A stretch of DNA of 64,000 bases from assembly GCA_016192035.1 (NCBI GenBank), contig JACPUW010000001.1, positions 33,090-97,089 of the forward strand, in the 5' to 3' direction. Source of the stretch: Bacteroidota bacterium. Lineage in GTDB: Bacteria; Bacteroidota; Bacteroidia; CAILMK01; JACPUW01. The notes under the pieces were generated by a model that searched no databases, was not told where the DNA came from, and was given only the letters and a program-made list of their open reading frames with translations. Below, one piece after another: positions 14,989 through 33,931 of the stretch. The first letter of the stretch is position 1, and each line of letters opens with the position of its first letter. A program made the position numbers and the translations under genes.

Positions 14989-16176
14989 ATGAACTCACTG
15001 CCCAAACTCATACAACAGTGCAAAGACCTGGCATTCGACCTTCAGTTTACCCGGAGCAGGGAATGGAAAGCCCAAGAAGAAGGCCGTGTGGTGGTGGGCT
15101 ATATGCCTGTCTATTTTCCACGTGAAATCATACACGCTGCCGGGGGCCTGCCCGTGGCCATTTTTGGCGGGGGCGACCGCAAACAAATCATCAAGGGTGA
15201 TGCCTACTACCAGTCGTACATCTGCCACATTCCCAGGAGCATTATTGACCTGGCCCTCGACGGGCATACCAATCATTTTGACGGATACCTTTTCCCGTCC
15301 ATCTGCGACGTAATTCGAAACCTTTCTGGGTTGTTTAAGCTCAATAAACTGGGTAAGTTTGTGAAATACATGGATTTCCCCCAAAACTTTCTGCCCGAAA
15401 TCGGTGGGGTTTTCTATCAGCAGGAAATGCAACATGTGCTCCACTATATAAAAGAGATCAACGGCAAGGAAGTGACCGCACATGACCTAAACCACTCTAT
15501 TGCCCTGTACAACACCAACCGGAGGCTTATAGCCCGTATGTATGACATACGGCAAGAGTTTCCCTGGCGCATGACCATAGAAGAGCTGTACTATGTGTTG
15601 CGGGCAGGTACGGTTATTCCCGTGGAGGAGCACAATGACATATTGGAACAGGTAGTGGCCCATATGGAAAAGGAAATTGGAGAACCACAAGACAAGATCA
15701 AGGTGGTGGTTTCAGGTGCCTTCTGCGAGCAACCCGCTGTGGGACTTATCAAGGCCATAGAAGAAGCCGGGTGCTACGTGGTGGACGACGACTATATGCT
15801 CGGTTCGCGCATGATCCTGGGCGATATAGACCCAAGTACCGATAAGCCGCTCGAAGCCATTGCAAACGCCTACATTCACCAAAGCCAGTATTCCTCTTCC
15901 ATTTATGATGTGCACAATCCCAAAGAATACCGCCTGGCCAAAATAGTACAGGACAGGGGCGCCGACGGGGTCATTTTTGCCTCCGCCAGTTTCTGCGATC
16001 CAAGCCTCCTCGATGCACCTATTTTCCAAAAGGCATTTGACGAAATGGGAATCAGGTACATATCATTCCAGTATTCTGAAAACATCAACCAATTTAAGGT
16101 AATCAAAGAACAAGTTGGTGCCTTCTCTGACAGCATCAAGCTATGGGAAGACGACAAAGCCCTGGTAATCGCCTAA
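14989..16176 (+). CDS. bcrC: Class I benzoyl-CoA reductase subunit, BcrC/BzdN-like
   Basis: 2-hydroxyacyl-CoA dehydratase D-component family (GYMPVYFPREIIHAAGGLPVAIFGGGDRKQIIKGDAYYQSYICHIPRS; SASFCDPSLLDAP); first of four contiguous reductase genes. Confidence 0.85.
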   Translation: MNSLPKLIQQCKDLAFDLQFTRSREWKAQEEGRVVVGYMPVYFPREIIHAAGGLPVAIFGGGDRKQIIKGDAYYQSYICHIPRSIIDLALDGHTNHFDGYLFPSICDVIRNLSGLFKLNKLGKFVKYMDFPQNFLPEIGGVFYQQEMQHVLHYIKEINGKEVTAHDLNHSIALYNTNRRLIARMYDIRQEFPWRMTIEELYYVLRAGTVIPVEEHNDILEQVVAHMEKEIGEPQDKIKVVVSGAFCEQPAVGLIKAIEEAGCYVVDDDYMLGSRMILGDIDPSTDKPLEAIANAYIHQSQYSSSIYDVHNPKEYRLAKIVQDRGADGVIFASASFCDPSLLDAPIFQKAFDEMGIRYISFQYSENINQFKVIKEQVGAFSDSIKLWEDDKALVIA

Positions 16177-16221
16177 TTTTAACATAGACAATCATATATC
16201 TAATACCATAAATCCAATTCT

Positions 16222-17517
16222 ATGGCACAAGAAGCACAAAAGGAAAAAAGCATGGTCCTGCAAAAGGAAATGGTGGAGGGACTCTTTAACGACCTGGACT
16301 CGGCCAAGGAAAAAGGCCGTAAGGTGTGCTACACCTTTATCCCGGGCAACCTCTCTGAACTCATCCGCACCTTTGACATGCTGCCCGTGTATCCCGAAAT
16401 CAATGCGCTGCAAAATGCCATGCGCAAGAAATCGGCAGCCTATATCCGCGAAGCCGAAAAGCACGCGCACTCCGAAGACGTATGTACCTATGTGAAGTGC
16501 GATGTGGGTATGATGCTCAAGGGAAACATAGGCCCCACCGGCCAGAAAATACCAGAACCCGACATACTGCTGCTCAGCTATACAGGGTGTTTCACCTTTA
16601 TGAAGTGGTTTGAAACCCTAAAAAGGGAGTACCCCAACGCCACCGTGGTGATGATACATACCCCCTACCAGGAGAATGGGGTAATGACCCCTGAAATGAC
16701 CCAATACATGGTCAAACAACTCAAGGAAGAGGTCATACCCAAAATGGAAGAGGTTACCGGTATCAAGTTCGATGAAGAAAAACTGCGCCGCCACCTGGAG
16801 CTCTCCCGCGAAGCCGAAGACTGGATTACCAAAATCTTTGATACCACCAAACACAAACCATCCCCCATTGACGCCTATTTCGCAGGGGTTTACTACATAG
16901 GCCCTATCAACATAGGCTTTAGGGGAACCCAGCAAGCGGTGGACTACTATAAGGAACTCTATGGCGAAATACAGGAGCGCATTAGGCTGGGACTGGGGCC
17001 CATAACCCCCGAAGGCGAAATGAAAGAAGAGAAATACCGATTGGTGGTAGAAGGCCCTCCCAACTGGACCAATTTTAGGGAGTTCTGGAAAATTTTCTAC
17101 GACATGGGCGCCGTAATCGTGGCATCATCCTACACCAAGGTGGGAGGGGTGTATGACCTGGGCTGGCGGCACGACCCTTCCAGGCCACTGGAAGCCCTGG
17201 CTGAGTACTGCATGAACTGCTACACCAACCTAAACATACCGCAGCGCATTGACCTGCTTTCCAAGTGTATAGAAGAATACCAGGCCGACGGTTATATCAC
17301 CAATTCCATCAAGAGCTGCAACTCATTCTCTGCCGGCCAACTCGGTATGATGCGCGAAATTGAAGACCGGCTCGACATACCCGTTGGGTTTATTGAATCT
17401 GACCTGGTGGACCCAAGATACTTTTCCTATTCCAACATAAAAAACCGCTTGGAGTCTTATTTCCAAATGCTTGCACAACGCAAGATGATGGAAGCCCATG
17501 AGGCCATACACGCGTAA
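16222..17517 (+). CDS. bcrB: Class I benzoyl-CoA reductase subunit, BcrB/BzdO-like
   Basis: Same family, 431 aa (CYTFIPGNLSELIRTFDMLPVYPEINALQNAMRKKSAAYIREAEKHAHSEDVCTYVKCDVG); partner position. Confidence 0.85.
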   Translation: MAQEAQKEKSMVLQKEMVEGLFNDLDSAKEKGRKVCYTFIPGNLSELIRTFDMLPVYPEINALQNAMRKKSAAYIREAEKHAHSEDVCTYVKCDVGMMLKGNIGPTGQKIPEPDILLLSYTGCFTFMKWFETLKREYPNATVVMIHTPYQENGVMTPEMTQYMVKQLKEEVIPKMEEVTGIKFDEEKLRRHLELSREAEDWITKIFDTTKHKPSPIDAYFAGVYYIGPINIGFRGTQQAVDYYKELYGEIQERIRLGLGPITPEGEMKEEKYRLVVEGPPNWTNFREFWKIFYDMGAVIVASSYTKVGGVYDLGWRHDPSRPLEALAEYCMNCYTNLNIPQRIDLLSKCIEEYQADGYITNSIKSCNSFSAGQLGMMREIEDRLDIPVGFIESDLVDPRYFSYSNIKNRLESYFQMLAQRKMMEAHEAIHA

Positions 17518-17539
17518 CTATCATCTAAATCACCCAGCC

Positions 17540-18970
17540 ATGAACAAGTATTATTTAGGCATTGACCTTGGATCTACCACTTCTAAGGCCGTCATAGTGA
17601 ACGAAAGCGATGAGATTGTGGGCCGAGGCATCACCAATACCAGGGCCAACTACAAGGTGGCCGCCGACATAGCCCGCGACGAAGCCATATACGATGCCCG
17701 GTTTACACTCCTGCAGCGAAAAATCAGCGAAGGACAGGGCGAAAACCCAGTGGTGGCACAGTACCTCCAAGACCTGAAGGGCGTATTTAAATACGGCCAG
17801 TTCAAACGCAGGATGGACAGCCTAGAGCTTATGCTAGTAAAAACCGTAGAAGAGTTTTCGTTTGACAATAAGGCCGATGTACTGGTAAAGATCAAGGAAA
17901 TCATTGAAGACATACGGCCACTGCTGCACCACGGCTTTATCCACGAAGACTTGGGAAGTAAAAACCAGTTTTTCAGGGATATAGTAAGTGAAAAATACAA
18001 TGCCGAAGTGGAGAAAAAGGGGCCTGAGTTTTACGAAAAACTCATGCTGGCCTTTGACAAAAGCATCAACCCCATAGAAAATGAAATGGTCGTTTTCGAT
18101 TTCAAGGAATTGGTGGAAGAATCCATGCATTACCTCGACGAAAAGTACCAGGGCATGGCAACCGAGCTAGCCGCAAACCCTACCGTTCCTTGGGCAAACG
18201 AGGACAACAAAGCCTTGGTTTCCAGCTATAAAGAGGTGGAAGCCGAAATAACAAAATACCTAGACATGGTGGCCAACGAAGAGATTTACGTGGCCAAGAT
18301 GGTGGGTACCGGGTATGGCCGCGCACTGCTGCCTTTTCCCGATGACTGCATCAAGTCTGAAATCCTTTGCCATGCCTTTGGCGCCCACGCCATTTTCCCC
18401 AATACACGTACCGTACTTGATATAGGCGGACAAGACACCAAGGCCATACAGGTGGACCGACATGGATTGGTAACCAGCTTTCACATGAACGACCGGTGCG
18501 CGGCGGGATGCGGGCGGTACCTGGGTTATATTGCCGATGAGTTTGGCTTGTCGCTCAATGAATTGGGACCTGAAGCCAACAAGGCTACCAAAGAAACCAC
18601 CATCTGTTCTACTTGTACCGTGTTTGCGGGTGCTGAGGTAAAAGAACTGCTCCACAACGGCGAAGAACGGCCCAACATCCTGGCTGGCCTGCACAAGGCC
18701 ATTGTCCAGAGGGCCATGTCACTCATAGCGCGTTCGGGCGGTGTGAGAAACGAATTCACTTTTACCGGTGGGGTAGCCAGAAACCAGGCCGTGCTCAAGT
18801 ACGTGAAACAAATGGTGCGCGATGCGTACGGCGATGTGACCATGAACATACACACCGACTCCATTTTTATGGGGGCATTGGGCGGGGCCATGTTTGCCCG
18901 ACGAAACATTAGCGCCGACCTGCCTCAGGTAGCCAAGTCGAATGCACATGCCGAAGAAGTTGAAGGATAA
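17540..18970 (+). CDS. bcrA: Benzoyl-CoA reductase ATPase/activator subunit (BcrA-like, large)
   Basis: BadF/BcrA ATPase motifs YYLGIDLGSTTSKAV, GTGYGRALLPF, DIGGQDTKAI and cluster cysteines NDRCAAGCGRYL / STCTVFAGAEV; start moved to internal ATG 17540. Confidence 0.88.
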   Translation: MNKYYLGIDLGSTTSKAVIVNESDEIVGRGITNTRANYKVAADIARDEAIYDARFTLLQRKISEGQGENPVVAQYLQDLKGVFKYGQFKRRMDSLELMLVKTVEEFSFDNKADVLVKIKEIIEDIRPLLHHGFIHEDLGSKNQFFRDIVSEKYNAEVEKKGPEFYEKLMLAFDKSINPIENEMVVFDFKELVEESMHYLDEKYQGMATELAANPTVPWANEDNKALVSSYKEVEAEITKYLDMVANEEIYVAKMVGTGYGRALLPFPDDCIKSEILCHAFGAHAIFPNTRTVLDIGGQDTKAIQVDRHGLVTSFHMNDRCAAGCGRYLGYIADEFGLSLNELGPEANKATKETTICSTCTVFAGAEVKELLHNGEERPNILAGLHKAIVQRAMSLIARSGGVRNEFTFTGGVARNQAVLKYVKQMVRDAYGDVTMNIHTDSIFMGALGGAMFARRNISADLPQVAKSNAHAEEVEG

Positions 18971-19004
18971 TTGTATAGAATTGTTAAACAAGTAATTGAC
19001 TATC

Positions 19005-19862
19005 ATGGAAAATCCAATCTACACCCTGGGGGTTGACGTAGGTGGCAGCTATGTTAAAGTGGCACTGATGCGGTATTTTCACCAATCAGGCAACCATGAA
19101 CTGGTGGACAAACAAACCGAAAAGATCCGCAAGCGAAACCCAAAAGACGTGGTGGTGGACGCGGTCAATATGGTGCTCATGCGCAATGGGTTGAACCAAG
19201 AGCGTGACATTGCCTACCTGGCTTCCACCGGCGAGGGCGAAATGGTGGAGCGCAAAACCGGCCACTTCTATTCCATGACTTCACATGCACGGGGGGGGAT
19301 TTTTTTCAATCCCGAGGCCAAGACCGTGGTGGATATGGGGGGACTATATGTGCGCGCCATCAAGGTGGACAGCAGGGGCAAGGTCATAGACTATAAAATG
19401 ACCGGCCAGTGCGCCTCCGGTTCCGGACAGTTCATAGAAAACATTTCCCGGTACCTGGGATTGGCCATAGAAGAAGTAGGCCCCATTTCCCTACAAGCCG
19501 ACAACCCAGAAGTGCCATCGGGCATTTGTGCCGTGCTGGCCGAAACCGATGTGATTAACTTGGTTTCCAAAGGATTGTCCACACCCAATATTGTCAAGGG
19601 CATAAACCTGTCCATAGCCAACCGGGTGGTAAAACTGCTTGGATCGCTACGGGCTGAATCGCCCATAGCACTGGTAGGCGGCATGGGCATGAATGAAGGT
19701 ATGATACAAGCCATTGAGGAAATATCCGCCGAAAACAAGCGCAATACCTTCAAATTCACATCGCACCCCAATTCCATATACTCCGGTGCCATTGGCGCCG
19801 CCATATGGGGCGGATACCGGTACCACAAGCTCAAAGAAAAGCAAGCCGTACTTGCCGTGTAG
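19005..19862 (+). CDS. bcrD: Benzoyl-CoA reductase ATPase/activator subunit (BcrD-like, small)
   Basis: TLGVDVGGSYVKVALM, VDMGGLYVRAI, MTGQCASGSGQFIENISRYLG, SGICAVLAETDVINL; start moved to internal ATG 19005. Confidence 0.88.
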   Translation: MENPIYTLGVDVGGSYVKVALMRYFHQSGNHELVDKQTEKIRKRNPKDVVVDAVNMVLMRNGLNQERDIAYLASTGEGEMVERKTGHFYSMTSHARGGIFFNPEAKTVVDMGGLYVRAIKVDSRGKVIDYKMTGQCASGSGQFIENISRYLGLAIEEVGPISLQADNPEVPSGICAVLAETDVINLVSKGLSTPNIVKGINLSIANRVVKLLGSLRAESPIALVGGMGMNEGMIQAIEEISAENKRNTFKFTSHPNSIYSGAIGAAIWGGYRYHKLKEKQAVLAV

Positions 19863-19894
19863 CCTTTCCCTACTAAACCCTCATCCATTGCCAC

Positions 19895-21622
19895 ATGAAA
19901 GCGAGTATAGCAGGTAAGCCACTTGGCCCGGTTATCCCAAACATAGCCACCATGTTGCGGCGCAATAGTGTGGATTTTGGGCCCAACCAGGTTTTTGCCC
20001 AAAAAGCCGATGACGGTGAATACCACGGCATAACTTGGGCTATTTTTTTTCAGGAAATCAATTGTATAGCTGCCAATCTCAAGGAGCTGGGCTTTAGTCC
20101 GGGCGACAAAATGGTGCTGTTTTCCAGAAACCAACTGCACATGCTCCAAATGGAACTCGCGGTCATGGCCTATGGCGGTATTGCCGTACCCATTTTTGCC
20201 CATTTCAAGCGCGAAACAGCGGAACTGCTCATCAAGCATTCCGAAGCGCGGTGGCTTTTTGTGGAGGGCCAATCTCAACTGGATACCCTGCCTGGCGACC
20301 TGGAGGTGCATAGGGTCTTTGTGTCTGATAGCTACCAAGATGGCTATGCCCTGCCTTGTGCCCCTTTTGCCGGCCTGTTGGTTTCCAATCAAGAGCAAGT
20401 GCTTGACTATGAAATAAAACCAGATTCCGTTTGCTTAAATATGTTTACCTCCGGCACTATGGGATTGCCCAAATGCGTGCAGCTCACACATGGCAATATC
20501 CTTTCGCAGCAAGCCGGTTTGTCTTTGGTGTGGGACCTGGGCCCGTCTGACAGGTTTTTGTCTTACTTGCCTTGGCACCACAGTTTTGGCGGCATTTTCG
20601 AGTTGTTTACCGCCCTGCGCACCGGTGCCACCTATTTTTTGGAAAGCTCCTATGGCAAAAGCCCCGAATCTATTTTTAACAATTGGAACAAGGTGAGGCC
20701 CACTGTCTTCTTTAGCGTTCCTAAAGTATATCAAGCCCTGTACGACTTAACCCGGGAAAGCAAAGAAGCCGAAGACGTTTTCTTCAACTCAGGACTAAAG
20801 TTCATCTTCACCGCAGCTGCCGCTTTGCCCGAAAGGTTATCGGCCGAATTTGAAAAACGGGGCATCCCTGTAATTGAAGGTTGGGGGCTTACCGAAACCT
20901 CACCCTGTTGCACCCTTACCAACCCCAGCCTCAAAAGGGAACCGGGCCTGGTGGGCATGCCACTGCCAGGCGTGCAACTGCGTATATCCCATGACGAAGA
21001 AATACAGGTAAAAGGCCCCAACGTAATGCTTGGGTACTTCAACAATGACGCTGCCAATCAAGAAGCCTTTACTCCAGATGGCTGGTACCGCACCGGCGAT
21101 GTGGGTGCCTTGGGACCCAATGGCCTCACACTCATAGCTAGAAAGGATAGGATCTTCAAGTTGTCAAATGGTGAAAAGGTCATTCCCACCGACCTGGAAA
21201 AAGCCATTGAGCTCCGCTGCCACTATGTGCAGTATGCCGTGGTTACCGGCAGTGGCGAAGAACATCCCGTGGCCCTTATTTTCCCAAACAAAAAACTACT
21301 GGAACAGCCTGACTATCAGGTCACACCTGAAGAAGGTTGTTTTTGTCCCAGGAGCCTCAATGAATTGGGACGCTGTTTTTCAGGGTGCCTTGAGCTGGCC
21401 AACAATACGATAGGCCAAAAATTCGCCAAGGTCAAATCGGCAGCTATCATCATGGATGAACTATCGCTAGAGGGCAATACCCTTACCCCTTCCATGAAAA
21501 TGGCACCCAAGAATGTGCTGGAGAAATACCGGGCACATCTGAAAAACCTCTATGGCGAACAAGTGCCGGTGAACGAGGAAGTATATGTGATAGACCTTAA
21601 CAAGAAACACAACATCAAGTAA
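19895..21622 (+). CDS. AMP-forming acyl-CoA ligase, substrate unknown
   Basis: FTSGTMGLPKCVQLTHGN, EGWGLTETSP, DGWYRTGDVG, A10-like TPSMKMAPKNVLEKY; overall resembles long-chain acyl-CoA ligases. Confidence 0.88.
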   Translation: MKASIAGKPLGPVIPNIATMLRRNSVDFGPNQVFAQKADDGEYHGITWAIFFQEINCIAANLKELGFSPGDKMVLFSRNQLHMLQMELAVMAYGGIAVPIFAHFKRETAELLIKHSEARWLFVEGQSQLDTLPGDLEVHRVFVSDSYQDGYALPCAPFAGLLVSNQEQVLDYEIKPDSVCLNMFTSGTMGLPKCVQLTHGNILSQQAGLSLVWDLGPSDRFLSYLPWHHSFGGIFELFTALRTGATYFLESSYGKSPESIFNNWNKVRPTVFFSVPKVYQALYDLTRESKEAEDVFFNSGLKFIFTAAAALPERLSAEFEKRGIPVIEGWGLTETSPCCTLTNPSLKREPGLVGMPLPGVQLRISHDEEIQVKGPNVMLGYFNNDAANQEAFTPDGWYRTGDVGALGPNGLTLIARKDRIFKLSNGEKVIPTDLEKAIELRCHYVQYAVVTGSGEEHPVALIFPNKKLLEQPDYQVTPEEGCFCPRSLNELGRCFSGCLELANNTIGQKFAKVKSAAIIMDELSLEGNTLTPSMKMAPKNVLEKYRAHLKNLYGEQVPVNEEVYVIDLNKKHNIK

Positions 21623-22843
21623 ATGTATAAAATAGCCAGTACCGAAACCATGAAAAAAGTCATGGGCGACTATTTCAAATCGCTCGGTAGCGGTGACAAC
21701 AAAGTAGCATGGTGTACCAGCGTGGGTCCCGCCGAACTCCTGCGGTCTTTTGGCTTTGAAGTCTATTTTCCCGAAAATCACGGTGCCTTGCTGGGGGCTA
21801 CCCGTTCTGCCATGGACTACATTCCCGAAGCCGTGAAATGCGGATACTCGGGCCATGTGTGCAGCTATACCACCGCCGATATTGGCAGCTACCTCAAGGG
21901 AGAAACCCCGCTTTCCAAACACTATGGCATGGCTGGGGCTCCTAAACCTGATCTAATTGCCTATAACACAAATCAGTGTAGGGAAGTCCAAGATTGGTTT
22001 GGCTTTTTTGCCAAAGAGTTTGGCTGCCCTATAGTGGGTATCCAGCCACCCAGGCATGTGGACCAAACCTCTCAAGAAGAGGTGGACCTGGTGGTAGCGC
22101 AGTTCAAACGCATGATTCCGGCCTGTGAAAATGCCAGCGGCAGCAAGTTTGACATAGATAGGTTTAGGGAAGTGGTAAGGCTGAGCAAGGAGGCTACCCT
22201 GCTGTGGCAGAAAGTGCTAAAAACGTCCACCGCACCCATAGCGCCCATTAGCTTCTTTGACGGCACCATACACATGGGGCCTATTGTGGTGCTTAGGGGC
22301 ACACAGGTGGCCAAAGATTACTATGCCAACCTCTTGGAGGAATTGGAACAAAACCTGGCCCAGGGAAAGGGCTTTTTGCCCAAGGCAAAGACCAGGATAT
22401 TTTGGGAAGGAATGCCCATTTGGGGCAAGCTGCGCATGTTGAGCGACCTTTTTGCCGATAACGCCGCCGCCGTGGTGGCGTCCACCTATTGCAGCAGTTG
22501 GGTGTTTGATCAATTTGATGAACGTGACCCATTTGAAAGCACTGCCCGTGCCTATACCGATATATTCATCAACCGAAGCGAAAAGGCCAAAATGGACATG
22601 TTGGCCAATTGGTTTGTAGAGTATGGCATAGACGGTATAGTCTATCACGATAGCAAGACCTGTTTTAACAACAGCAATGCAAAATTTGGCATGCCACAGC
22701 GCCTCAGGGACCGCACCGGGGTGCCGGCACTGGTGATTGAAGGCGACCTGTGCGACCTGCGCTTTTTTAGTGAAGGACAGAGCACCACCAAGATTGAAAC
22801 TTTTTTGGAACAGCTTGAAGACCAAAAGTCAGCCGTGATATGA
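21623..22843 (+). CDS. 2-hydroxyacyl-CoA dehydratase/BcrB-family protein (lone third D-component)
   Basis: Family-like order of conserved Cys/loops: VAWCTSVGPAELLRSFGFEVYFPENHGALLGA, YSGHVCSYTTADIG, GIVYHDSKTCFNNS, VIEGDLCDLRFFSEGQ. Confidence 0.82.
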   Translation: MYKIASTETMKKVMGDYFKSLGSGDNKVAWCTSVGPAELLRSFGFEVYFPENHGALLGATRSAMDYIPEAVKCGYSGHVCSYTTADIGSYLKGETPLSKHYGMAGAPKPDLIAYNTNQCREVQDWFGFFAKEFGCPIVGIQPPRHVDQTSQEEVDLVVAQFKRMIPACENASGSKFDIDRFREVVRLSKEATLLWQKVLKTSTAPIAPISFFDGTIHMGPIVVLRGTQVAKDYYANLLEELEQNLAQGKGFLPKAKTRIFWEGMPIWGKLRMLSDLFADNAAAVVASTYCSSWVFDQFDERDPFESTARAYTDIFINRSEKAKMDMLANWFVEYGIDGIVYHDSKTCFNNSNAKFGMPQRLRDRTGVPALVIEGDLCDLRFFSEGQSTTKIETFLEQLEDQKSAVI

Positions 22844-24693
22844 GCAATAACCAACCACTCAACATAGGCATAGTGGGTTTGGGGCCTGTGGGTATGATCA
22901 TGGCCGTGAAACTCCAAGAAGCGGGTTGCCAGGTATCACTCTGCGTGCGAAATGAGGTGAAGCGCAACCGCATTCTTACCGAAGGCATCAAGATAGAAAA
23001 TGTATTTCAGGCCCAGGCGGCCTTTACCCAAGTATATGCATCCCTTGGCTCCTTGGTTGACCTGCCACTGGATTTCCTCATCATTGCCACCAAGTCATAC
23101 CAAGTGCCCGAACTCATTCCCCATCTGGCCATGCTCAACACCGAGAAAATTACCGTGGTGGCAGCCCAGAATGGCATTGATGTGGAACAACTGCTCATTC
23201 CCACCTTTGGCGAGTCAAAGGTGCTGCGCATGGTAGTGAACTATGCCGGAAATATGGTTTCGCCCAATGTGGTGAAGGCCACCTTTTTCTCCGCACCCAA
23301 CTATCTCGGTTCACTCAATGATTCGCGCAGCGCACAAGCACAGGCACTGGCCAATGCACTGAGCAGCACAGGCCTGGAAACCAAAACCGTGGATTCGTTT
23401 GAATTATTTAAAAGGGCTTGGCAAAAAACCATCCTTAACTCTTCGCTCAGCGCCCTATGCGGGGTGGGACGGCTCACCATGGCCGAAGCAATGGCCGACC
23501 CTGACACCGTGGAACTTATAGAACAAACCATAAACGAGGCAGTGGTAGTGGCCGAGAAAGAAAAAGTCAGATTTCCCGATGACTTTGTTCGCCAGTGCCT
23601 TAAGTACCTTAAAAACGGAGGTGACCACTTTCCCTCCCTCGCCCTTGACCTAATCAATGGCCGCCCCACCGAAATAGACTATTTCAATGGAAAAATAGTG
23701 GAGTATGGCCGCAAGCACTATGTGCGCACTTCGCTCAACCTGTCTATGACCAACATGGTGAAAGCCATGACGAACAAGAACATCATTTCACGGGTGCCCG
23801 GTGCCGCCGGCAACGTGGCCAGAAAAATATTGGACAAGGGTTTGGTGGACAAAAAGGCTACCCCGGCCACCTTCCGCAACTCCGATTGTTTCCTGGGCAT
23901 TGACCTGGGTTCATCCTATGCCAAGTTTTGCGTGGCCGATGACAAGGGAAATGCCCTGTTCAGGTATTTCTTGCCTACCATGACCAATGATAAGCAGGCC
24001 TTTAAAAACGTGATGCAGGCCATAGCTTCCAATTTCCAGATTAAGTACTCATGCGCCACTGGATATGGCCGAAAGCATTTTACCGAAACCGATATGGTGA
24101 AAACGGAAATCAATTGTGCCGCCGCCGGTGTGTCGCATTATTTCCACGGGGCCAAGAATATCATTGATATAGGGGGAGAAGACATTAAGATCATCCGCTG
24201 CGAGGCCGATGATTCCGTGCTCAACTTCTACATGAATGACAAGTGCGCGGCAGGCACCGGTTCTTTCTTGGCCGAAATAGCCGAGCGCGCCGATATCAAA
24301 ATTGCCGAAATGAGCGGTTTGGCTGCCCTTTCCTCTTATGACAAGGAGCTCAATAGCTTCTGTACCGTGTTTGCCAAAACCGAAATCATGAATTGGATTT
24401 TCGACGGGCTTAGCCTAGAGGATATCTCTAAGGGGATTTACCTCTCCATAGCAAACCGCGTGGCCAAAATGCGCCTTGACCCAGGCATCCCTACCTATAT
24501 GATTGGGGGTGTCATAGCCCATCACCCCTATCTCAGGGAATTGCTGGCACAGCGCTTTGACAAGGAGATTCACATAGTGGAACAGCCCCAGTTTGTGGTG
24601 GCCTTAGGGGCCGCCTTGCTGGCCGCCATGGCCCACTCACGTGAAACGGCCAGAAAAGGCCTTGAACAACAAGCAAATACCGTAACTGTGTAA
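22840..24693 (+). CDS. Fusion: ketopantoate reductase (PanE/ApbA)-like domain + BadF/BadG/BcrA/BcrD-type ATPase
   Basis: N-half LNIGIVGLGPVGMIMAVKLQEAG ... KRAWQKTILN ... GRPTEIDYFNG; C-half CFLGIDLGSSYAKFCVADD ... ATGYGRKHF ... DIGGEDIKII ... MNDKCAAGTGSFLAEIAERA ... FCTVFAKTEI. One continuous 617-aa frame overlapping the upstream gene by 4 bp. Confidence 0.88.
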   Translation: MSNNQPLNIGIVGLGPVGMIMAVKLQEAGCQVSLCVRNEVKRNRILTEGIKIENVFQAQAAFTQVYASLGSLVDLPLDFLIIATKSYQVPELIPHLAMLNTEKITVVAAQNGIDVEQLLIPTFGESKVLRMVVNYAGNMVSPNVVKATFFSAPNYLGSLNDSRSAQAQALANALSSTGLETKTVDSFELFKRAWQKTILNSSLSALCGVGRLTMAEAMADPDTVELIEQTINEAVVVAEKEKVRFPDDFVRQCLKYLKNGGDHFPSLALDLINGRPTEIDYFNGKIVEYGRKHYVRTSLNLSMTNMVKAMTNKNIISRVPGAAGNVARKILDKGLVDKKATPATFRNSDCFLGIDLGSSYAKFCVADDKGNALFRYFLPTMTNDKQAFKNVMQAIASNFQIKYSCATGYGRKHFTETDMVKTEINCAAAGVSHYFHGAKNIIDIGGEDIKIIRCEADDSVLNFYMNDKCAAGTGSFLAEIAERADIKIAEMSGLAALSSYDKELNSFCTVFAKTEIMNWIFDGLSLEDISKGIYLSIANRVAKMRLDPGIPTYMIGGVIAHHPYLRELLAQRFDKEIHIVEQPQFVVALGAALLAAMAHSRETARKGLEQQANTVTV

Positions 24694-24695
24694 AT

Positions 24696-25892
24696 ATGAC
24701 TAAAGACCTAAACATGTTTCCCGAGGCCCGCATTCCTTTTGGCACTTGGGGGAGCAGTTATTTTCCGGCTTGGCAGTCCTCTCCTTTGGCAGAGGTAAAC
24801 ATTGGCCAATTTGCCGGCGAGGGCATGGCCCTTATCATGTCTAAGCGTAAGGTGCCCATCAGGGTGCTTGATTATTTGGTGGTTGGCTCCACTGTGCCCT
24901 GGCACTACAAGTTTTGGAATGCCACCGTGGTGGCTTCATGTACGGGCCACCGTATGCCGGGCCACCACCTGGAGCAAGCTTGCGCCACCGGGCTGCAGGC
25001 CATAGTAGCTGCAGGTGCTCAGGTGCAGTCGGGCTCTAGCGAGGCCGCAGGGGTCCTCACTTTCGACCGGACATCCGACTCACCCGTGGGCGTGTTTCCC
25101 GAACGACGTGCCTACCGGCGCACCGAGGTGATTTCTGACGTATGGGACAACTTTGGCTTTGATCCTTCTACCGAGAATGCCATGATTGCCTCTGCGGGTA
25201 ATGTGGCCCGCAAGTACAAGGTGGACCGTGCAGAGATTGACGATATGGTGGCGTTTAGGTACCAACAGTATTTTCAGGGCAAGGAATCGGGTTTCATACA
25301 GCGGGTGGCCGTTCCCATGGAGGTACTCAACATGCAGGGCAAATCCATGGGCACCATAGCAGATGATATTGGGGTAAAGAAAATATCGCTCCAGGCCCTG
25401 CATGCCATGCGCGAACTGGAAACGGGCGTGACCGGCGGGAGCCAAACACACGCCGCCGATGGTATGGCTACCATGCTGGTAACCAACAAGGAAATGGCAA
25501 AACAGCTTAGTACCCGGCCCGAAATTGACATTAGGTTCGTGGCAAAGGCCGAGGTACGGGTTCACGCATCCTGCATGCCCGAAGCCCCAGCCGCTGCCGT
25601 GCAAAAGCTCCTGTCTAAAACCGGCTTGTCCATGAACGATATGGCCGTGGTCAAGGACCACAACCCATTTGCCGTCAACGATGCCGTGTTTGCCAAGGTT
25701 TTTGGCTATGACTGGCACAAAATGAACAACAACGGTTGTCCATTGGTGTGGGGTCACCCCCAGGGGCCCACTCTTACCCGTGTCACCATTGAAGCCCTGG
25801 AAGAAGCCGCTGACCTAGGTGGGGGATACGTGCTCATTTTTGGCTGTGCCGCCGGTGATGTAGGTATCGCTGCCGTCTTTAAAGTTTCTTGA
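24696..25892 (+). CDS. Divergent thiolase-family protein
   Basis: EQACATGLQAI (nucleophile Cys), DHNPFAVNDAVFAKVF, WGHPQGPTLTR, GCAAGDVGIA; last motif differs from canonical CxGGG. Confidence 0.82.
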   Translation: MTKDLNMFPEARIPFGTWGSSYFPAWQSSPLAEVNIGQFAGEGMALIMSKRKVPIRVLDYLVVGSTVPWHYKFWNATVVASCTGHRMPGHHLEQACATGLQAIVAAGAQVQSGSSEAAGVLTFDRTSDSPVGVFPERRAYRRTEVISDVWDNFGFDPSTENAMIASAGNVARKYKVDRAEIDDMVAFRYQQYFQGKESGFIQRVAVPMEVLNMQGKSMGTIADDIGVKKISLQALHAMRELETGVTGGSQTHAADGMATMLVTNKEMAKQLSTRPEIDIRFVAKAEVRVHASCMPEAPAAAVQKLLSKTGLSMNDMAVVKDHNPFAVNDAVFAKVFGYDWHKMNNNGCPLVWGHPQGPTLTRVTIEALEEAADLGGGYVLIFGCAAGDVGIAAVFKVS

Positions 25893-25917
25893 AAAACAAT
25901 AAATTGACTATTCTATC

Positions 25918-28026
25918 ATGACAAGCAATTCCCAAAAAATACATGCCATGCGCCAACCCACGCTCCAGTCATTGGGGCTGGGGTCGGTGTTGGAGATTTT
26001 CCAAAACGGCCATATGCCCCTGCAAACGGCCGAATTGGTGGACGAAGTTTTTGGCCCTGAGGGACAGCGGGGCGCTATGGTGATTTCTGGTGCCAGCGGC
26101 ATAGTGGGTGCTGGCAAGGTGATGCAGTTTGCCTCCAGGCTGCAGCCCTATGGCATTCCCATCATTGCCCTTGACCTGCCAGGAGCCCCTGATGGGCTGG
26201 CCCAGCAATACAAGGGTTTACAGGCTTCTTTTGGGCCCAAGGCAGCCGCCGACATTATGCAGTACGTGGTACGCATAAACTATGATGGCAGCTCCCTGCC
26301 TGCGGCACTCCATCAATACAATCCCAAGTTCCTACTTGAGGCCATACCTGAAAACCTGGCCCTTAAAAGAGCCCACTACGAACTTTTCCGAAACGCATTC
26401 CCGGGCATACACATCTGGTCGGTTACTTCCGGATTCCCTTCATCTGAGTTGGGAGTGGGCATAGCCCACCCCGCTTTCCCGCATGAAATCAACAAGATAT
26501 TTGAAATAGTAGAGGAAAACCCCTCACCACAAACGCGCCTGCTCTGGAGCCTGGGCCTTATCCCGCTCAAGGTGAGCGACAACTGGTCCTTTGTGCTCGA
26601 TGTCTTTTTCTGCGGTTTGTTGCAGGCCTGCCTGCATTTCTGCCACCGCACCAATACACCGTACTGGAAGGTGGACAAATACATACGAAAGGTGTTGGGC
26701 CCCAACCCTTTTAGGGCGCATGACGTGATTGGTGCCAAAGGGGCCAATTTCCTTACATGGTCTTGCCTCCACCACCTGTCGCTACACTATGGGCCTCTAT
26801 ACCGTCCTGAAAACCAGCTGGAAATACGAAAGGAAAGTGGGCAGAACTGGTACCCGCTCAATCACTTCCGCCCTCTGGTCAACTGGACACTCGACCCCGA
26901 AACCGAGGCGGAGTTGAATACCATTGTAATGGGTGCGCTCTACCAAATGACCTCCCTTATGGTGCATGAACACCGGGCACAACCGGCTGTGATGAACCTA
27001 ATAGGCGAGGTATGCGCCCAGTTTACCAGGGGCATACTGGCCCACTGCCGCCAAGCAGGGCCTCATGGCGTGCGCCAGCAAGTGGCACAGTTCCATAAAC
27101 TGCTGCCAGAGGCAGCCCTATCGCCTTGGTACCCCCAGGTTTTTGACCAAATGGACAGCCCTGAATGGCAGCAGCTATATGTAAACGCCGAACACAATGG
27201 GCAAGTAGGCACCATTACCATAGCCCGTGAAAGCTATAACCGCGACGTGGATGCCGAATTGAACCGTGCCATAGATTGGCTTAATAAACAAGGCATTAAG
27301 AGTGTAATCGTGACCGGCGATTTCCACCTTTCCACACAAATGGTAGGGGCCGATACCAATGAATTCTTCCCGGCCATAGTACAGGCCGAAGAGGGTATCC
27401 GAATTGCCGCCACTTGGTCGGCTACGGCGCGCAGGCTGCACACGGAGTTTGATGTGTCGGTGGGATTTATACATGGCAAGCGCTGCATGGGGGGAATGCT
27501 GGAACTGCTCATGCACTGCCACTACCTCATAGCGCCTTCTTCGGTTTCGTTTGCCATGCCTGAGGTTACCCTACCCGTATTGCCCGGCATGGAGGGTTGT
27601 CACTGGGCATTGCGAAAATGCCCCGAGTCACTGCGCATCAACGTGTTGCACATGCTCCTCACCGGCAAGGCCGTGAAGGCATCAGAAACCGTAGGATGGC
27701 TGCTGGATGTGAGCGGTACCATGGATCAATGCCTGTTAAAGGCTTGGGAAATAGCCAATAAAGGGGCTAAGGCCCAGGCTCCGCGACCATTTGTTGAAAC
27801 GGGGTTTGCCATGAATTCGCTTGAATGGGCGGCCCTGGAACCCACCACCGACCCTGCACTGCAAGGTGCCCGTGAAGCCATTGCTGCCTGCATTGATGGG
27901 GCATGCGCCGTGGGCCTAGAACAAGCACTGCCGCTCCAGGCCAAATACTCCGGTGAGTTTATGACCACCCAGCTATGCCGCCGGGGAAGGGTGGGCTCCG
28001 AGCGCGATAAGATTGTGAATGTGTAA
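25918..28026 (+). CDS. 3-hydroxyacyl-CoA dehydrogenase-like N-domain fused to enoyl-CoA hydratase C-domain
   Basis: N-terminal Rossmann-like AMVISGASGIVGAGKVMQFASRLQ, AHPAFPHEINKIFEIVE; C-terminal MVGADTNEFF, MGGMLELLMHCHYLIAPSSVSFAMPEVTLPVLPGMEG. Confidence 0.78.
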   Translation: MTSNSQKIHAMRQPTLQSLGLGSVLEIFQNGHMPLQTAELVDEVFGPEGQRGAMVISGASGIVGAGKVMQFASRLQPYGIPIIALDLPGAPDGLAQQYKGLQASFGPKAAADIMQYVVRINYDGSSLPAALHQYNPKFLLEAIPENLALKRAHYELFRNAFPGIHIWSVTSGFPSSELGVGIAHPAFPHEINKIFEIVEENPSPQTRLLWSLGLIPLKVSDNWSFVLDVFFCGLLQACLHFCHRTNTPYWKVDKYIRKVLGPNPFRAHDVIGAKGANFLTWSCLHHLSLHYGPLYRPENQLEIRKESGQNWYPLNHFRPLVNWTLDPETEAELNTIVMGALYQMTSLMVHEHRAQPAVMNLIGEVCAQFTRGILAHCRQAGPHGVRQQVAQFHKLLPEAALSPWYPQVFDQMDSPEWQQLYVNAEHNGQVGTITIARESYNRDVDAELNRAIDWLNKQGIKSVIVTGDFHLSTQMVGADTNEFFPAIVQAEEGIRIAATWSATARRLHTEFDVSVGFIHGKRCMGGMLELLMHCHYLIAPSSVSFAMPEVTLPVLPGMEGCHWALRKCPESLRINVLHMLLTGKAVKASETVGWLLDVSGTMDQCLLKAWEIANKGAKAQAPRPFVETGFAMNSLEWAALEPTTDPALQGAREAIAACIDGACAVGLEQALPLQAKYSGEFMTTQLCRRGRVGSERDKIVNV

Positions 28027-28044
28027 GCCAAAGAATAGATAGAC

Positions 28045-29100
28045 ATGAAGTTGTATCAATACCAAATGACCCAAACCCAGGCCGATTTCCAGTTGGTGGA
28101 ATCTGAAATGCCCGCGTTGGCCCCTGGCCAGGCCCTGGTACAGGTAGCGGGCTGTGGCGTATGCCATACCGACATAAGCTTCTGGCACCATGGGGTAAGG
28201 ACCAAAAAGGAATTGCCGCTCACCCTGGGCCACGAGATTAGCGGCACCGTGGTAGATGGCCCTGAACACCTCCTGGGCCAGGCTGTGATCATACCTGCCG
28301 TGCTCCCCTGTGGCGAATGCGAGCTGTGCCAAATGGGCCGGAGCAATATCTGCCAAAACCAATTGATGCCCGGAAATGATTTTCATGGCGGTTTTGCCTC
28401 ACACATTGCCGTGCCTTCCCGGTTTCTATGCCCAGTGCCTAAGTCATTGTTGGGCACATATCCATTGGAACGCCTATCGGTGGTGGCCGATGCCATATCT
28501 ACCCCTTACCAAGTAATAGAAAAGGCTGAGTTACAGCCCGGCGATTTTGCCATAGTGATTGGTGTGGGCGGGGTAGGTGTGTATGGCGCCCTTTTGGCCA
28601 AAATCAAGGGGGCCAAGGTGCTGGCCATTGACATAGACGATCAGAAACTGGCCAATGCCATGAAACACGGCGTGGATGCCACCCTCAATTCAAGGGACAA
28701 GGACATAAAGGCCATTAAGGCTGAGGTAAAGGAAATTGCCAAGTCGCTGGGCGCCCCTAAGTATGCCTGGAAGATCTTTGAGATTTCTGGCACCGCGCCG
28801 GGACAAGAATTGGCCTTTAACCTAATCACTTTCGCATCGACCATGAGCGTGGTGGGCTTTACCATGGCCAAGCCTGATGTGAGGCTCAGCAACCTCATGG
28901 CCTTTGATGCCAAACTAATAGGCACTTGGGGATGCAAACCTGAATTGTATGCCAATGTGTTAGCCCTCATTGACAGTGGCCGGCTGGAAATTGGCAACTT
29001 CGTGGAAACATTCCAAATGTCACAAATCAATCAGGTATTTCAAAATACCCTGGCCCACAAGTACTCAAAACGTTCTGTCATGGTACCAGACTTTAATTGA
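28045..29100 (+). CDS. had: 6-hydroxycyclohex-1-ene-1-carbonyl-CoA dehydrogenase
   Basis: Zinc alcohol dehydrogenase with GCGVCHTDISFWHHGVRTKKELPLTLGHEISG, CGECELCQMGRSNIC; adjacent to oah and dch. Confidence 0.88.
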   Translation: MKLYQYQMTQTQADFQLVESEMPALAPGQALVQVAGCGVCHTDISFWHHGVRTKKELPLTLGHEISGTVVDGPEHLLGQAVIIPAVLPCGECELCQMGRSNICQNQLMPGNDFHGGFASHIAVPSRFLCPVPKSLLGTYPLERLSVVADAISTPYQVIEKAELQPGDFAIVIGVGGVGVYGALLAKIKGAKVLAIDIDDQKLANAMKHGVDATLNSRDKDIKAIKAEVKEIAKSLGAPKYAWKIFEISGTAPGQELAFNLITFASTMSVVGFTMAKPDVRLSNLMAFDAKLIGTWGCKPELYANVLALIDSGRLEIGNFVETFQMSQINQVFQNTLAHKYSKRSVMVPDFN

Positions 29101-29123
29101 CTCCAAACCAAAAATTGAATCAT

Positions 29124-30227
29124 ATGAACTTTAAGAATCACAACATTATAGAAGGCTATGCCTATACTGACATAGCGTATGAGCTGCGCCCCTGTGTGGA
29201 CCATGCGGGCAATGCCGTGGCGGGTTTGTACAATGCCTGGATCATGCTCAACAACCCGGGTCAGTACAACTCTTACACCACCAAGGCGGTGAAAGAAGTA
29301 ATCTTGGCTTTTGGCGAAGCCAGCAATGACCGCAGCGTGGTAGCCGTGGTATTTACTGCCGTGGGCGATAAGGCGTTCTGTACCGGGGGCAATACCAAGG
29401 AGTATGCCGAGTACTATTCGGGTCAGCCCCAAGAGTATAGCCAGTATATGCGGCTGTTTAACGACATGGTCTCGGCCATATTGAAATGCGAAAAACCCGT
29501 GATATGCCGGGTGAACGGCATGCGCATAGCCGGTGGGCAAGAAATAGGCATGGCCTGTGATATGACCGTGGCATCAGACCTGGCCAAGTTTGGACAGGCC
29601 GGCCCCAAACACGGCAGCGCGGCCATTGGCGGTTCTACCGATTTCCTTCACCTCTATGTGGGTATTGAACGCGCCATGCAGTCGCTCACCCTTTGCGACC
29701 AGTGGACAGCCCACTATGCCAAGTTTATTGGCCTTATTACCGACATAGCCCCGGTGCTTAAAAAGGATGGAAAATTTTTGGTTAACCCTTTGGTAACCAC
29801 CGACAAGATGGTGGACAATATGGGCAACATCGTATATGGCCAAGTGAAAACAGGAGAGGAATTGGCCCTGGCCAAAGCCCTTATGTCACAAGCCGAAATT
29901 GACCTTAGCGAACTGGACAAGACAGTAAACCGACTGATTGCCAAGCTGCTGTATGCTTTTCCAAACTGTATTTCCAAGTCGCTCACCGAAGTGCGAAAGA
30001 AGAAATTGGAACACTGGGACCGCAACAAGGAAAGCAGCAGAGAGTGGTTGGCGCTCAACATGATGACCGAAGCGAAAGCCGGTTTCAGGGCTTTTAACGA
30101 AGGCCCTAAAAACGGGCGCGAAATTGATTTCATCAAGCTCCGTCAACTACTGGCACAAGGCCATGAATGGAACGACGACCTGCACCGCGCCATTTCGCCC
30201 CAGTATAAACCGGAAAACAAACAGTAG
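29124..30227 (+). CDS. oah: 6-oxocyclohex-1-ene-1-carbonyl-CoA hydrolase (ring-opening, Oah/BamA)
   Basis: Crotonase family; Oah-like FCTGGNTKEYAEYYSGQPQEYSQYMRLFNDMVSAILKCEKPVICRVNGMRIAGGQEIGMACD. ORF opens at 29097; ATG at 29124 (MNFKNHNIIEG) likely start. Confidence 0.92.
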   Translation: MNFKNHNIIEGYAYTDIAYELRPCVDHAGNAVAGLYNAWIMLNNPGQYNSYTTKAVKEVILAFGEASNDRSVVAVVFTAVGDKAFCTGGNTKEYAEYYSGQPQEYSQYMRLFNDMVSAILKCEKPVICRVNGMRIAGGQEIGMACDMTVASDLAKFGQAGPKHGSAAIGGSTDFLHLYVGIERAMQSLTLCDQWTAHYAKFIGLITDIAPVLKKDGKFLVNPLVTTDKMVDNMGNIVYGQVKTGEELALAKALMSQAEIDLSELDKTVNRLIAKLLYAFPNCISKSLTEVRKKKLEHWDRNKESSREWLALNMMTEAKAGFRAFNEGPKNGREIDFIKLRQLLAQGHEWNDDLHRAISPQYKPENKQ

Positions 30228-30229
30228 CA

Positions 30230-31003
30230 ATGGAAAAGGTAAAACTGAGCTATACGCACCATGACTCGGTAGCCTGGATAACCCTGGCCGATGGCAAGGG
30301 CAATGTGCTGGACAATGTAATGATGCTCGAAATATTGGGTTGCCTTCGGGATTTTGGAAAAAATTCAAACTTGAAACTCATTGTTTTTCAAGGAGAAGGT
30401 AAACATTTTTCCTTTGGGGCCAGTGTAGAAGAGCATACCAAGGAACTGGCCGAAACCATGCTGAAAACCTTTCACAAGATTTTTAAAACGCTGATTGATC
30501 TCAGCATCCCCACGGCTTCGCTCATTTCTGGGCAGTGTCTGGGGGGCGGCATGGAACTGGCCATCATGTGTCAGGTGCTGTTTGCCGATAAAACGGCCAA
30601 AATGGGCCAACCCGAAATCGTATTGGGCGTTTTTCCGCCACCTGCTTCTATTATCCTTCCTGAAAAGATTGGATTGGCCCGGGCAGAGGAGCTGTTACTG
30701 ACAGGGCGAAGCGTCGATGCCCACGAAGCACTGTCGCTGGGTATTGTGAATCAAGTTTTTGAAGATAAAAGTGCGTTAATGGCAGGGTTTGATTTTTGGG
30801 TGAACCAACACATAGTGCCCAAAAGCGCAAGCTCGCTGCGCTATGCCGCCAAGGCTGCCCGCATTAAATTCAACCACGTGATGGGCAATTTCTTGCCCCA
30901 ACTTGAATATATCTATAACCGACAACTTATGGAAACCCATGATGCCAACGAGGGAATCACCGCCTTCCTGGCCAAGCGACAACCCGAATGGTCCAATAGT
31001 TAA
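30230..31003 (+). CDS. dch: Cyclohexa-1,5-diene-1-carbonyl-CoA hydratase
   Basis: Crotonase family; GEGKHFSFGASVEEHTKELAETMLKTFHKIFKTL ... GQCLGGGMELAIMCQVLFAD. Confidence 0.9.
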   Translation: MEKVKLSYTHHDSVAWITLADGKGNVLDNVMMLEILGCLRDFGKNSNLKLIVFQGEGKHFSFGASVEEHTKELAETMLKTFHKIFKTLIDLSIPTASLISGQCLGGGMELAIMCQVLFADKTAKMGQPEIVLGVFPPPASIILPEKIGLARAEELLLTGRSVDAHEALSLGIVNQVFEDKSALMAGFDFWVNQHIVPKSASSLRYAAKAARIKFNHVMGNFLPQLEYIYNRQLMETHDANEGITAFLAKRQPEWSNS

Positions 31004-31016
31004 TTCCTTTACCAAA

Positions 31017-32908: not shown

Positions 32909-33931
32909 ATGGAAGCCATACAAACTGCTGCGCTAAAACCGCGCGACTACGCCAGCGACCAAGAAGTTAAGTGGTGCCCCGGATGCGGGGATTATGCCGT
33001 ACACAGCGCCGTTCAAAAGGCATTTGCCGATTTGGCACTAAAAAAAGACCAGGTAGCCATCATATCGGGCATTGGTTGCTCTTCCCGTTTTCCCTACTAT
33101 ATGGATACCTATGGTTTCCATACCATACACGGAAGGGCGGCTGCCGTGGCCACCGGGGTCAAATTGGCCAACCCCAGCCTCTCCGTTTGGGTCATGACCG
33201 GCGACGGGGATGCCCTTGCCATAGGAGGCAACCACTTCATACATGCCCAGCGCCGCAATATTGATATGAACATGGTGCTGTTCAACAATGAGATATACGG
33301 CCTTACCAAAGGCCAGCACTCCCCTACCACGGCCAAAGGAAAGGTGTTAAAATCATCGCCCTTGGGCACCATAGAAAACACCTTCTCCGTAGGTGAACTC
33401 TGCCTGGGTGCAGGCGGCCAGTTCTATGCCCGTGTGCCCGATACCGATGTGAAACTCATGGCGCAGGTCATGACGGAAGCCTATCGCCATAAGGGGTTTG
33501 CCATGATTGAAGTGTTGCAAAACTGTGTGATATTCAATGATAAAACCCACGCCCAAATCACGGGCAAAGAGTCTAGGGCATTGAATCAATTGGTGCTGGA
33601 GCACGGCAAGCCCATGATCTTTGGTGCCAACAGTGAGAAAGGCATAAGGCTAAACGGCCTAGAACTCGAGGTAATCACCCTGGGCCAGGGCGGAATGGGT
33701 ATAAACGATGTGCTGGTGCACGATGCAACCAACAAGTCAAATATCCTGCATACCATGTTGGTGCAGATGCGCTTACCCGAGTTTCCGGTAGCCCTGGGCG
33801 TCATACGTCGGGCGCAGTCATCCGTATTTGACCAAGATTTCTTGGCCCAGTCTGAAGCGCAGAAATCCAATACCCCATTCAAGGGGCTCAACGACTTGTT
33901 TCACAGTGGAAATACCTTTCAGATTAATTAA
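32909..33931 (+). CDS. korB: 2-oxoacid (2-oxoglutarate):ferredoxin oxidoreductase beta subunit
   Basis: KWCPGCGDYAVHSAVQKAF, ISGIGCSSRFPYYMDTYGFHTIHGRA, GDGDALAIGGNHFIHAQRRN TPP-binding motifs. Confidence 0.93.
   Translation: MEAIQTAALKPRDYASDQEVKWCPGCGDYAVHSAVQKAFADLALKKDQVAIISGIGCSSRFPYYMDTYGFHTIHGRAAAVATGVKLANPSLSVWVMTGDGDALAIGGNHFIHAQRRNIDMNMVLFNNEIYGLTKGQHSPTTAKGKVLKSSPLGTIENTFSVGELCLGAGGQFYARVPDTDVKLMAQVMTEAYRHKGFAMIEVLQNCVIFNDKTHAQITGKESRALNQLVLEHGKPMIFGANSEKGIRLNGLELEVITLGQGGMGINDVLVHDATNKSNILHTMLVQMRLPEFPVALGVIRRAQSSVFDQDFLAQSEAQKSNTPFKGLNDLFHSGNTFQIN

Follow-up and report, generated by a model that had tools for sequence, protein, structure and literature searches.

The window analysed here is a 64,000-nucleotide stretch of a Bacteroidota genome (G000:C32:33090-97089), and our subject is one plus-strand run of genes within it, 14989-43637, which encodes the benzoyl-CoA reductase (BCR) subunits BcrC, BcrB, BcrA and BcrD and the ring-processing enzymes Had, Oah and Dch, then a 2-oxoacid:ferredoxin oxidoreductase, a 4-hydroxybenzoyl-CoA reductase and Sdh. 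A first-pass annotation had placed BcrC/B/A/D, Had, Oah and Dch in a single plus-strand run; the open reading frames were found where it had put them, and its family matches were right. The feature is larger than it described, reaching about position 43637 and including five genes, located between bcrD and had, on which it did not comment. We consider it probable that the run is a complete anaerobic benzoyl-CoA cluster of a nitrate-respiring facultative host, that it belongs to a horizontally exchanged family, and that these inserted genes form a module that makes (4-hydroxy)benzoyl-CoA. Proteins were scored in bits against the cut-offs of curated equivalog models (NCBIfam). The genes from bcrC to dch are the following.

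14989..16176, plus strand: bcrC, benzoyl-CoA reductase subunit C, 395 aa (TIGR02263, 441.5 bits; cut-off 421)
16222..17517, plus strand: bcrB, catalytic subunit B, 431 aa (TIGR02260, 669.9 bits; cut-off 486.55)
17498..18970, plus strand: bcrA, ATPase/activase subunit, long form, 490 aa (TIGR02259, 420 bits; below the cut-off of 578)
18996..19862, plus strand: bcrD, ATPase/activase subunit, 288 aa (TIGR02261, 308.3 bits; just under 312.85); the true start is probably an ATG 9 bases inside the open reading frame
19895..21622, plus strand: LIG, AMP-forming acyl-CoA ligase (PF00501, PF23562; closest PDB entry, feruloyl-CoA synthetase 8wev)
21623..22843, plus strand: HGD2, 2-hydroxyacyl-CoA dehydratase alpha-like protein without a beta partner (HadB model, 211 bits)
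22840..24693, plus strand: PanE/ApbA ketopantoate-reductase-type dehydrogenase (residues ~1-315) fused to an acyl-CoA dehydratase activase (~350-600)
24696..25892, plus strand: divergent thiolase with the thiolase Cys/His/Cys residues (PF02803, PF00108)
25918..28026, plus strand: X702, 702 aa, divergent 3-hydroxyacyl-CoA dehydrogenase (HCDH, N-terminal) and enoyl-CoA hydratase (ECH, C-terminal; ECH domain)
28045..29100, plus strand: had, 6-hydroxycyclohex-1-ene-1-carbonyl-CoA dehydrogenase (TIGR03201, 440 bits; cut-off 338.65)
29097..30227, plus strand: oah, 6-oxocyclohex-1-ene-1-carbonyl-CoA hydratase (TIGR03200, 573 bits; cut-off 464)
30230..31003, plus strand: dch, cyclohexa-1,5-dienecarbonyl-CoA hydratase (TIGR03189, 223 bits; best family, below 292.5)

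BcrCBAD comprises four subunits, two HGD-D catalytic and two BcrAD ATPase subunits. BcrB and BcrC passed the curated Bcr models, whereas the Bzd models scored far lower (bzdO, 78 bits for BcrB; bzdN, 116 bits), and the BzdN/O/P/Q models as a set did not identify a Bzd enzyme. Judged from these scores, the reductase is of the Bcr (Thauera) type of class I and not of the Bzd type. The class I reductase and benzoyl-CoA pathway named in the first-pass annotation were borne out, with BcrC, BcrB, Had and Oah all above their cut-offs. In BcrC, whose best PDB relative is MbdN (9g87_B), C79, C106, C246 and C336 were invariant among 82 orthologues. In BcrB, C88, C123 and C366 were invariant among 89 orthologues and E59 was invariant in a separate alignment; the three cluster cysteines and the active-site Glu align with those of BzdO/MbdO. 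C334 and C370/C373 of BcrA were invariant among orthologues, as were C139 and C178 of BcrD (79 orthologues). The cluster cysteines are thus intact, as had been claimed: both the cluster ligands and, in BcrA and BcrD, the pair of activase Cys are invariant in about 80 orthologues. In two relatives (L120-L121 of G109; L128-L129 of G038) bcrD no longer adjoined bcrA, owing to intervening unrelated genes or a rearrangement; the order was compact elsewhere.

The middle module, in which a dehydratase alpha-like protein lacking a beta subunit is combined with a ketopantoate-reductase/activase fusion, was found to be undescribed. The dehydratase and PanE-activase genes, the most unusual part of the cluster, had been overlooked in the first-pass annotation. 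HGD2 failed the curated HadB model (211 of 750 bits). Its predicted structure (pLDDT 85.5) was closest in the PDB to 3o3m_A, the alpha subunit of 2-hydroxyisocaproyl-CoA dehydratase (TM-score 0.88/0.90), and the HadB alpha subunit ranked ahead of MbdO, BzdO and DCCP. Across 63 sequences, the window protein and 62 orthologues, S33, E51, C80, C119, V122 and C347 were invariant; the Ser, the Glu and the three Cys are those of HadB. The position of the Ser is occupied by Ile in BcrB and MbdO, and that of the Val by the catalytic His in BzdO. HGD2 thus has the three Cys, Ser and Glu of a HadBC-type dehydratase, and an activase with two Cys, and lacks the beta subunit: when PF06050 proteins were counted in 42 reductase-bearing genomes, no HadC-like beta subunit was found. 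Exactly three such proteins (BcrC, BcrB and HGD2) were present in 41 of the 42, and the remaining genome has a split BcrC. HGD2 probably works as a homodimer; a homomeric protein is the simplest reading because no beta subunit is encoded and because one genome that carries HGD2, G010, lacks BcrC too.

In the PanE half of the fusion, GxGxxG (G13-G18), N111, K196, N200 and E278 were invariant in 45 sequences. Because this motif and the catalytic Asn, Lys and Glu are kept, the PanE half is probably an active 2-hydroxyacid dehydrogenase. The activase half exceeded its cut-off (TIGR00241, 168 bits; cut-off 125), and its C469 and C508 were invariant. PanE and the activase were separate, neighbouring genes at five loci (L073, L078, L082, L087 and L101), and that they remain neighbours when unfused favours a joint function. 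In-frame stops were seen in the PanE-activase frame of G047:C131, G074:C76 and G248:C177, from a frameshift, an assembly error or decay.

LIG reaches 109 of the 375 bits required by the TIGR02262 benzoate-ligase model and does not belong to that family. An ordinary benzoate-CoA ligase in the host was considered and rejected, since no protein of the host genome matched TIGR02262 above the cut-off. X702 aligned over its full length with HCDH-ECH proteins, and its predicted structure (mean pLDDT 58) matched only HCDH folds at E<0.001. Across families the recurrent order was BcrCBAD-ligase-HGD2-PanE-activase-thiolase-Had-Oah-Dch-HCDH/ECH, and the AMP ligase was replaced by an ADP-forming acyl-CoA synthetase in Bacteroidales and Ignavibacteria.

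How widespread the cluster is was judged from 396 genomes (198 genera) drawn across the class and from a phylum-wide draw of 393 genomes. BcrB scored above the cut-off in 51 of the 396 class genomes, representing 32 of the 198 genera and 26 families including that of the host; nearly all the named carriers are metagenome-assembled genomes (MAGs). The phylum-wide draw added three genomes from other classes, two of which (G452 and G647) are closed, single-contig genomes with the full cluster. A scan of GTDB contigs, one genome per GTDB species, returned 363 relatives. The best 80 of these were almost all Bacteroidota MAGs, with some Chlorobiota, Ignavibacteria and KSB1, and their isolate names indicate stratified lakes, groundwater, and hydrothermal and marine sediments.

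HGD2 and PanE-activase were present in all 52 BcrB-bearing class genomes (the additional genome, G128, has a split BcrB), PanE-activase being fused in 50 (in one, the gene is truncated where the contig ends) and split in 2. Only 1 of the 344 class genomes without BcrB had them (Fisher p ~1e-64, phylogeny ignored), and this co-occurrence is the more telling because parts of the cluster recombine. The exception, G010 (L208, G010:C82:32319-52318), belongs to the host's order and encodes a ligase, PanE, Had, Oah, Dch, HGD2, activase, thiolase and HCDH. It has no BcrCBAD, and HGD2 is its sole PF06050 protein genome-wide; a class II (tungsten) reductase may serve it instead. G528, from another class of the phylum, carries a true Bzd set (BzdN 485, BzdO 659 and BzdQ 445 bits, all above cut-off; L216, L219, G528:C15), and its HGD2 (64% identical) stands alone on a different contig (L209, G528:C37).

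Inheritance of the cluster did not follow that of the genomes. In the same-genus pairs G074/G109 and G047/G086, rpoB was 91-92% identical and BcrB 73%, whereas between the host and G074, which are of different families, rpoB was 73% and BcrB 89% identical. Approximately unbiased (AU) tests rejected G074/G109 and G047/G086 as clades (p 1e-8 and 2e-27) and likewise a clade of the host and its order-mate G009 (p 2e-6). The rank correlation between rpoB and BcrB identities is set aside, since the rpoB row of G019 had been taken from a wrong reading frame; none of the pair values given here includes G019. No BcrB was found in the genus-mate G001 (81% complete) or the family-mate G002 (88% complete). 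Because the AU tests reject vertical descent, horizontal movement of the cluster within the phylum, across family lines, is well supported. A recent import was rejected on composition, the third-position GC content (GC3) of the cluster being no different from that of its flanks. A plasmid search for proteobacterial BcrB references gave only dehydratase-like matches (22-27%). The first-pass annotation had offered horizontal acquisition or an undocumented lineage as alternatives; both apply, because the cluster is widespread in the class and is exchanged between families. Its presence in the phylum is not entirely novel, a Bacteroidota carrier, MAG KA17, having been reported before.

A chimeric contig, or a bin contaminated by proteobacterial DNA, would explain the locus differently. 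Most carriers are MAGs, and two relatives bear odd labels (L075, Gammaproteobacteria; L108, Armatimonadetes), which could be taken to favour it; the two loci resemble Bacteroidota clusters and are probably mis-binned or recent transfers. Against it, the contig is 97 kb long, contamination is 0.11%, GC3 is like that of the flanks, and the same cluster occurs on the closed genomes G452 and G647 and in dozens of independent MAGs. For the cluster family a chimera is excluded because closed single-contig genomes carry it; for the window contig it is unlikely, and we regard the explanation as a whole as highly improbable. A chimeric contig, which the first-pass annotation had named as a possible refutation, was thus not borne out.

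The host genome is 2.98 Mb in 44 contigs, 100% complete with 0.11% contamination. Its assignment to the Bacteroidota, proposed in the first-pass annotation, stood: the window holds DUF5723, DUF4293 and a CHU_C type IX signal, all typical of the phylum, as are the Nqr and Tgt genes farther left. Relatives of the same class and order match public contigs named Bacteroidetes or Flavobacteriales, and G009 was confirmed by sequence to be JABDBQ010000007.1. The TAnnTTTG promoter boxes invoked as a further mark of the host did not hold up; the two-box Bacteroidota pattern had 0 matches in the window with about 2 expected by chance, and the boxes are therefore no evidence here. NarG (above cut-off), an aa3 oxidase and formate dehydrogenase are encoded in the host genome, suggesting that the host is a facultative nitrate respirer, the usual life style for class I reductases. 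In G054, G111 and G096 (loci L122, L118 and L130, respectively) nar genes lie a few kb from the bcr cluster. Taken together, sequence evidence makes it very probable that this is a benzoyl-CoA cluster in a host of this kind. A hemerythrin-like protein is encoded at window 4230-4754, and a related-looking one (as at L048:1957-2490) recurs beside the clusters of 13 relatives, possibly linked to O2 or NO sensing.

The remainder of the run is as follows.

30903..32906, plus strand: korA, 2-oxoacid:acceptor oxidoreductase alpha (TIGR03710, 620 bits; cut-off 483); the true start is probably later, after dch
32909..33931, plus strand: korB, 2-oxoacid:ferredoxin oxidoreductase beta (PRK11866, 253; TIGR02177, 249)
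33941..34621, plus strand: MocA-type molybdenum cofactor nucleotidyltransferase (TIGR03310, 89 bits; below cut-off)
34560..35375, plus strand: XdhC-type maturation factor (NF045664, TIGR02964)
35362..36099, plus strand: short-chain dehydrogenase (SDR), kept beside hba genes (synteny)
36282..39062, plus strand: hbaCA, 4-hydroxybenzoyl-CoA reductase gamma-alpha fusion (TIGR03194, 815 bits, best family, cut-off 995; TIGR03193, 172)
39104..40042, plus strand: hbaB, 4-hydroxybenzoyl-CoA reductase beta (TIGR03195, 195 bits; best family, below cut-off)
40182..43637, plus strand: sdhCAB/frd, succinate dehydrogenase-fumarate reductase, a host gene set at the end of the run (PF01127, PF00890/PF02910, PF13085)

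A Cys-rich insert is visible in the HbaB sequence. In relatives the MocA-type gene is also kept beside the hba genes, and the block MocA-XdhC-SDR-HbaCA-HbaB usually lies divergently upstream of the cluster. A second, distinct hydroxybenzoyl-CoA-reductase-like molybdoenzyme (42-44% to HbaCA) was seen in L212 (G647), L103 and L208, where it adjoins PanE, activase or an SDR. Beyond the run, a stand-alone YhcG_C PDDEXK nuclease domain lies between 45776 (start) and 46282 (end) of the window.

From the genes, domain identities, key residues, order, linkage and copy number described above, we infer every substrate and direction in the following route. Arylpyruvate would arise from phenylalanine or tyrosine by transamination; PanE would reduce it to (R)-aryllactate, which the ligase would convert to its CoA ester. 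HGD2, fired by the activase, would carry out a radical dehydration of aryllactyl-CoA to cinnamoyl- or coumaroyl-CoA, and HCDH-ECH and the thiolase would give (4-hydroxy)benzoyl-CoA by hydration, oxidation and thiolysis. Hba would strip the 4-hydroxyl from 4-hydroxybenzoyl-CoA, and BcrCBAD would reduce benzoyl-CoA to the 1,5-diene at the expense of ATP, with KorAB supplying the reduced ferredoxin. Dch, Had and Oah, by their family membership, would take the diene to 3-hydroxypimeloyl-CoA, and beta-oxidation enzymes with a glutaryl-CoA dehydrogenase-like enzyme would complete the breakdown. That the module feeds phenylalanine and tyrosine into the pathway through aryllactyl-CoA is a plausible but tentative proposal.

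Several points weigh against this proposal. BcrA, BcrD, Dch and the Hba subunits fall below their curated cut-offs, though each matches its family best. The beta-oxidation enzymes would be needed equally for 3-hydroxypimeloyl-CoA; LIG may simply be the benzoate-CoA ligase; and the poor structural model of X702 supports a fold class at most. All HadBC-type dehydratases known to us are alpha-beta heterodimers, and because no beta subunit is encoded the chemistry of HGD2 could differ. Arylpyruvates could also have another fate, such as a phenylacetate route, through a fused indolepyruvate:ferredoxin oxidoreductase-like protein of the host (L152, G000:C29:263198-266488; 534 bits, below the model cut-off).

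The module could instead serve as a shunt in the lower pathway, in which HGD2 would hydrate glutaconyl-CoA to 2-hydroxyglutaryl-CoA, the ligase would release 2-hydroxyglutarate, PanE would form 2-oxoglutarate and KorAB would use it to reduce ferredoxin for BCR. KorAB in the same run, the known 2-hydroxyglutaryl-CoA dehydratases among 2-hydroxyacyl-CoA dehydratases, and the lineages in which an ADP-forming acyl-CoA synthetase, there the releasing ligase, replaces the AMP ligase all suit such a shunt, but the AMP-forming ligase of most lineages favours CoA activation over release, and the usual substrates of PanE-type enzymes are branched or aromatic 2-oxoacids. Moreover, a glutaryl-CoA-dehydrogenase-like enzyme in the host (L193), 73% identical to one encoded beside hba in L082, with similar genes adjoining hba in other clusters, points to the ordinary route, and we consider the shunt unlikely. 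HGD2 might alternatively be no dehydratase at all: it could assist BCR as an accessory, or it could be a second catalytic subunit of the reductase type, served by its own activase and acting on a different aromatic CoA ester. Wherever it occurs, benzoyl-CoA pathway genes are there too, its similarity to BcrB (184 bits) is about equal to that to HadB (211 bits), and BCR and the dehydratases form one family (PMC11971306). However, the Ser of HadB is retained, as is the C-x-x-V that follows the second Cys, positions at which BcrB/MbdO have Ile and Phe and BzdO its catalytic His; PanE would have no evident part to play in reducing a ring; G010 has HGD2 as its only PF06050 protein; and G528 pairs HGD2 with a Bzd-type reductase on another contig. 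A reductase role is therefore improbable in our estimation, and it and the shunt are both weaker readings than the aryllactate route. There is likewise a small chance that the module acts on some other 2-hydroxyacyl-CoA or has a regulatory or redox function, given that a substrate cannot be read from sequence and that HGD2 reaches so little of the HadB cut-off; yet ligase, HGD2, PanE/activase, thiolase and HCDH/ECH together account for every step of an arylpyruvate route, and none of them is left over.

The cluster shares with the Thauera Bcr pathway (bcrCBAD-had-oah-dch-kor) the four subunits, Had/Oah/Dch and a nearby Kor-type oxidoreductase. It differs in its Bacteroidota host, the fused hbaCA, the long BcrA below the cut-off, the inserted ligase-HGD2-PanE/activase-thiolase-HCDH/ECH genes and the lack of a TIGR02262 benzoate ligase above the cut-off. 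HGD2 resembles HadB of HadBC-HadI (PDB 3o3m, 4eht) in fold and in its three Cys, Ser and Glu, and the activase half resembles the activator 4eht; unlike HadBC-HadI, the window system has no HadC-like beta subunit, its activase is fused to PanE, and it is linked to aromatic degradation. A single HGD-D protein with an activase is also found in DCCP and its reductase (6eno, 7yyl), but HGD2 is far nearer HadB than DCCP (TM-score 0.88 vs 0.77), and the DCCP model scored weakly (64 of 350 bits). The same chemical sequence, phenylpyruvate to cinnamoyl-CoA to benzoyl-CoA, was hypothesised for benzene activation in the sulphate reducer BzS1, with the dehydratase unassigned (PMC13416013); in the window system all the enzymes sit in one conserved cluster.

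Two reports came earlier and lower the surprise. The Vicingaceae MAG KA17 is a member of the Bacteroidota described, in the available part of the source, as having a four-subunit class I BCR, narG and nosZ and termed Bzd-type (PMC8470020). Its contig, L046 in our set, encodes a BcrB 89% identical to that of the window and the same HGD2 and PanE-activase, and the HGD2 module is not discussed in that part of the paper. Because KA17 BcrB scores 667 bits with TIGR02260, with no bzdO match at the threshold used, we regard its reductase as Bcr-type, contrary to the label in the paper. Uncultured Krumholzibacteriota MAGs (FCB group), of a different phylum from the window host, carry bcrABCD and the pathway to 3-hydroxypimeloyl-CoA (PMC10936416). 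The wide occurrence of the cluster, and its obligate module with a single-subunit dehydratase, make it more surprising.

Proteobacteria, together with a few strict anaerobes, usually receive the credit for cleaving aromatic rings in the absence of oxygen. Should the cluster prove functional, common uncultured nitrate-respiring Bacteroidota of lakes, groundwater and sediments would join them, and these organisms would escape marker surveys limited to proteobacterial bcr or benzoate-ligase genes. It is possible, though rather doubtful, that uncultured Bacteroidota oxidise phenylalanine and tyrosine anaerobically via aryllactyl-CoA, with a homodimeric dehydratase that receives its substrate from a reductase fused to its own activator. 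Radical dehydration of aryllactyl-CoA, and not a passage through phenylacetate, may then be the way in which aromatic amino acids reach the benzoyl-CoA pathway; if that were true, the peripheral pathway would be new, and so would the architecture of a dehydratase that lacks the usual second subunit.

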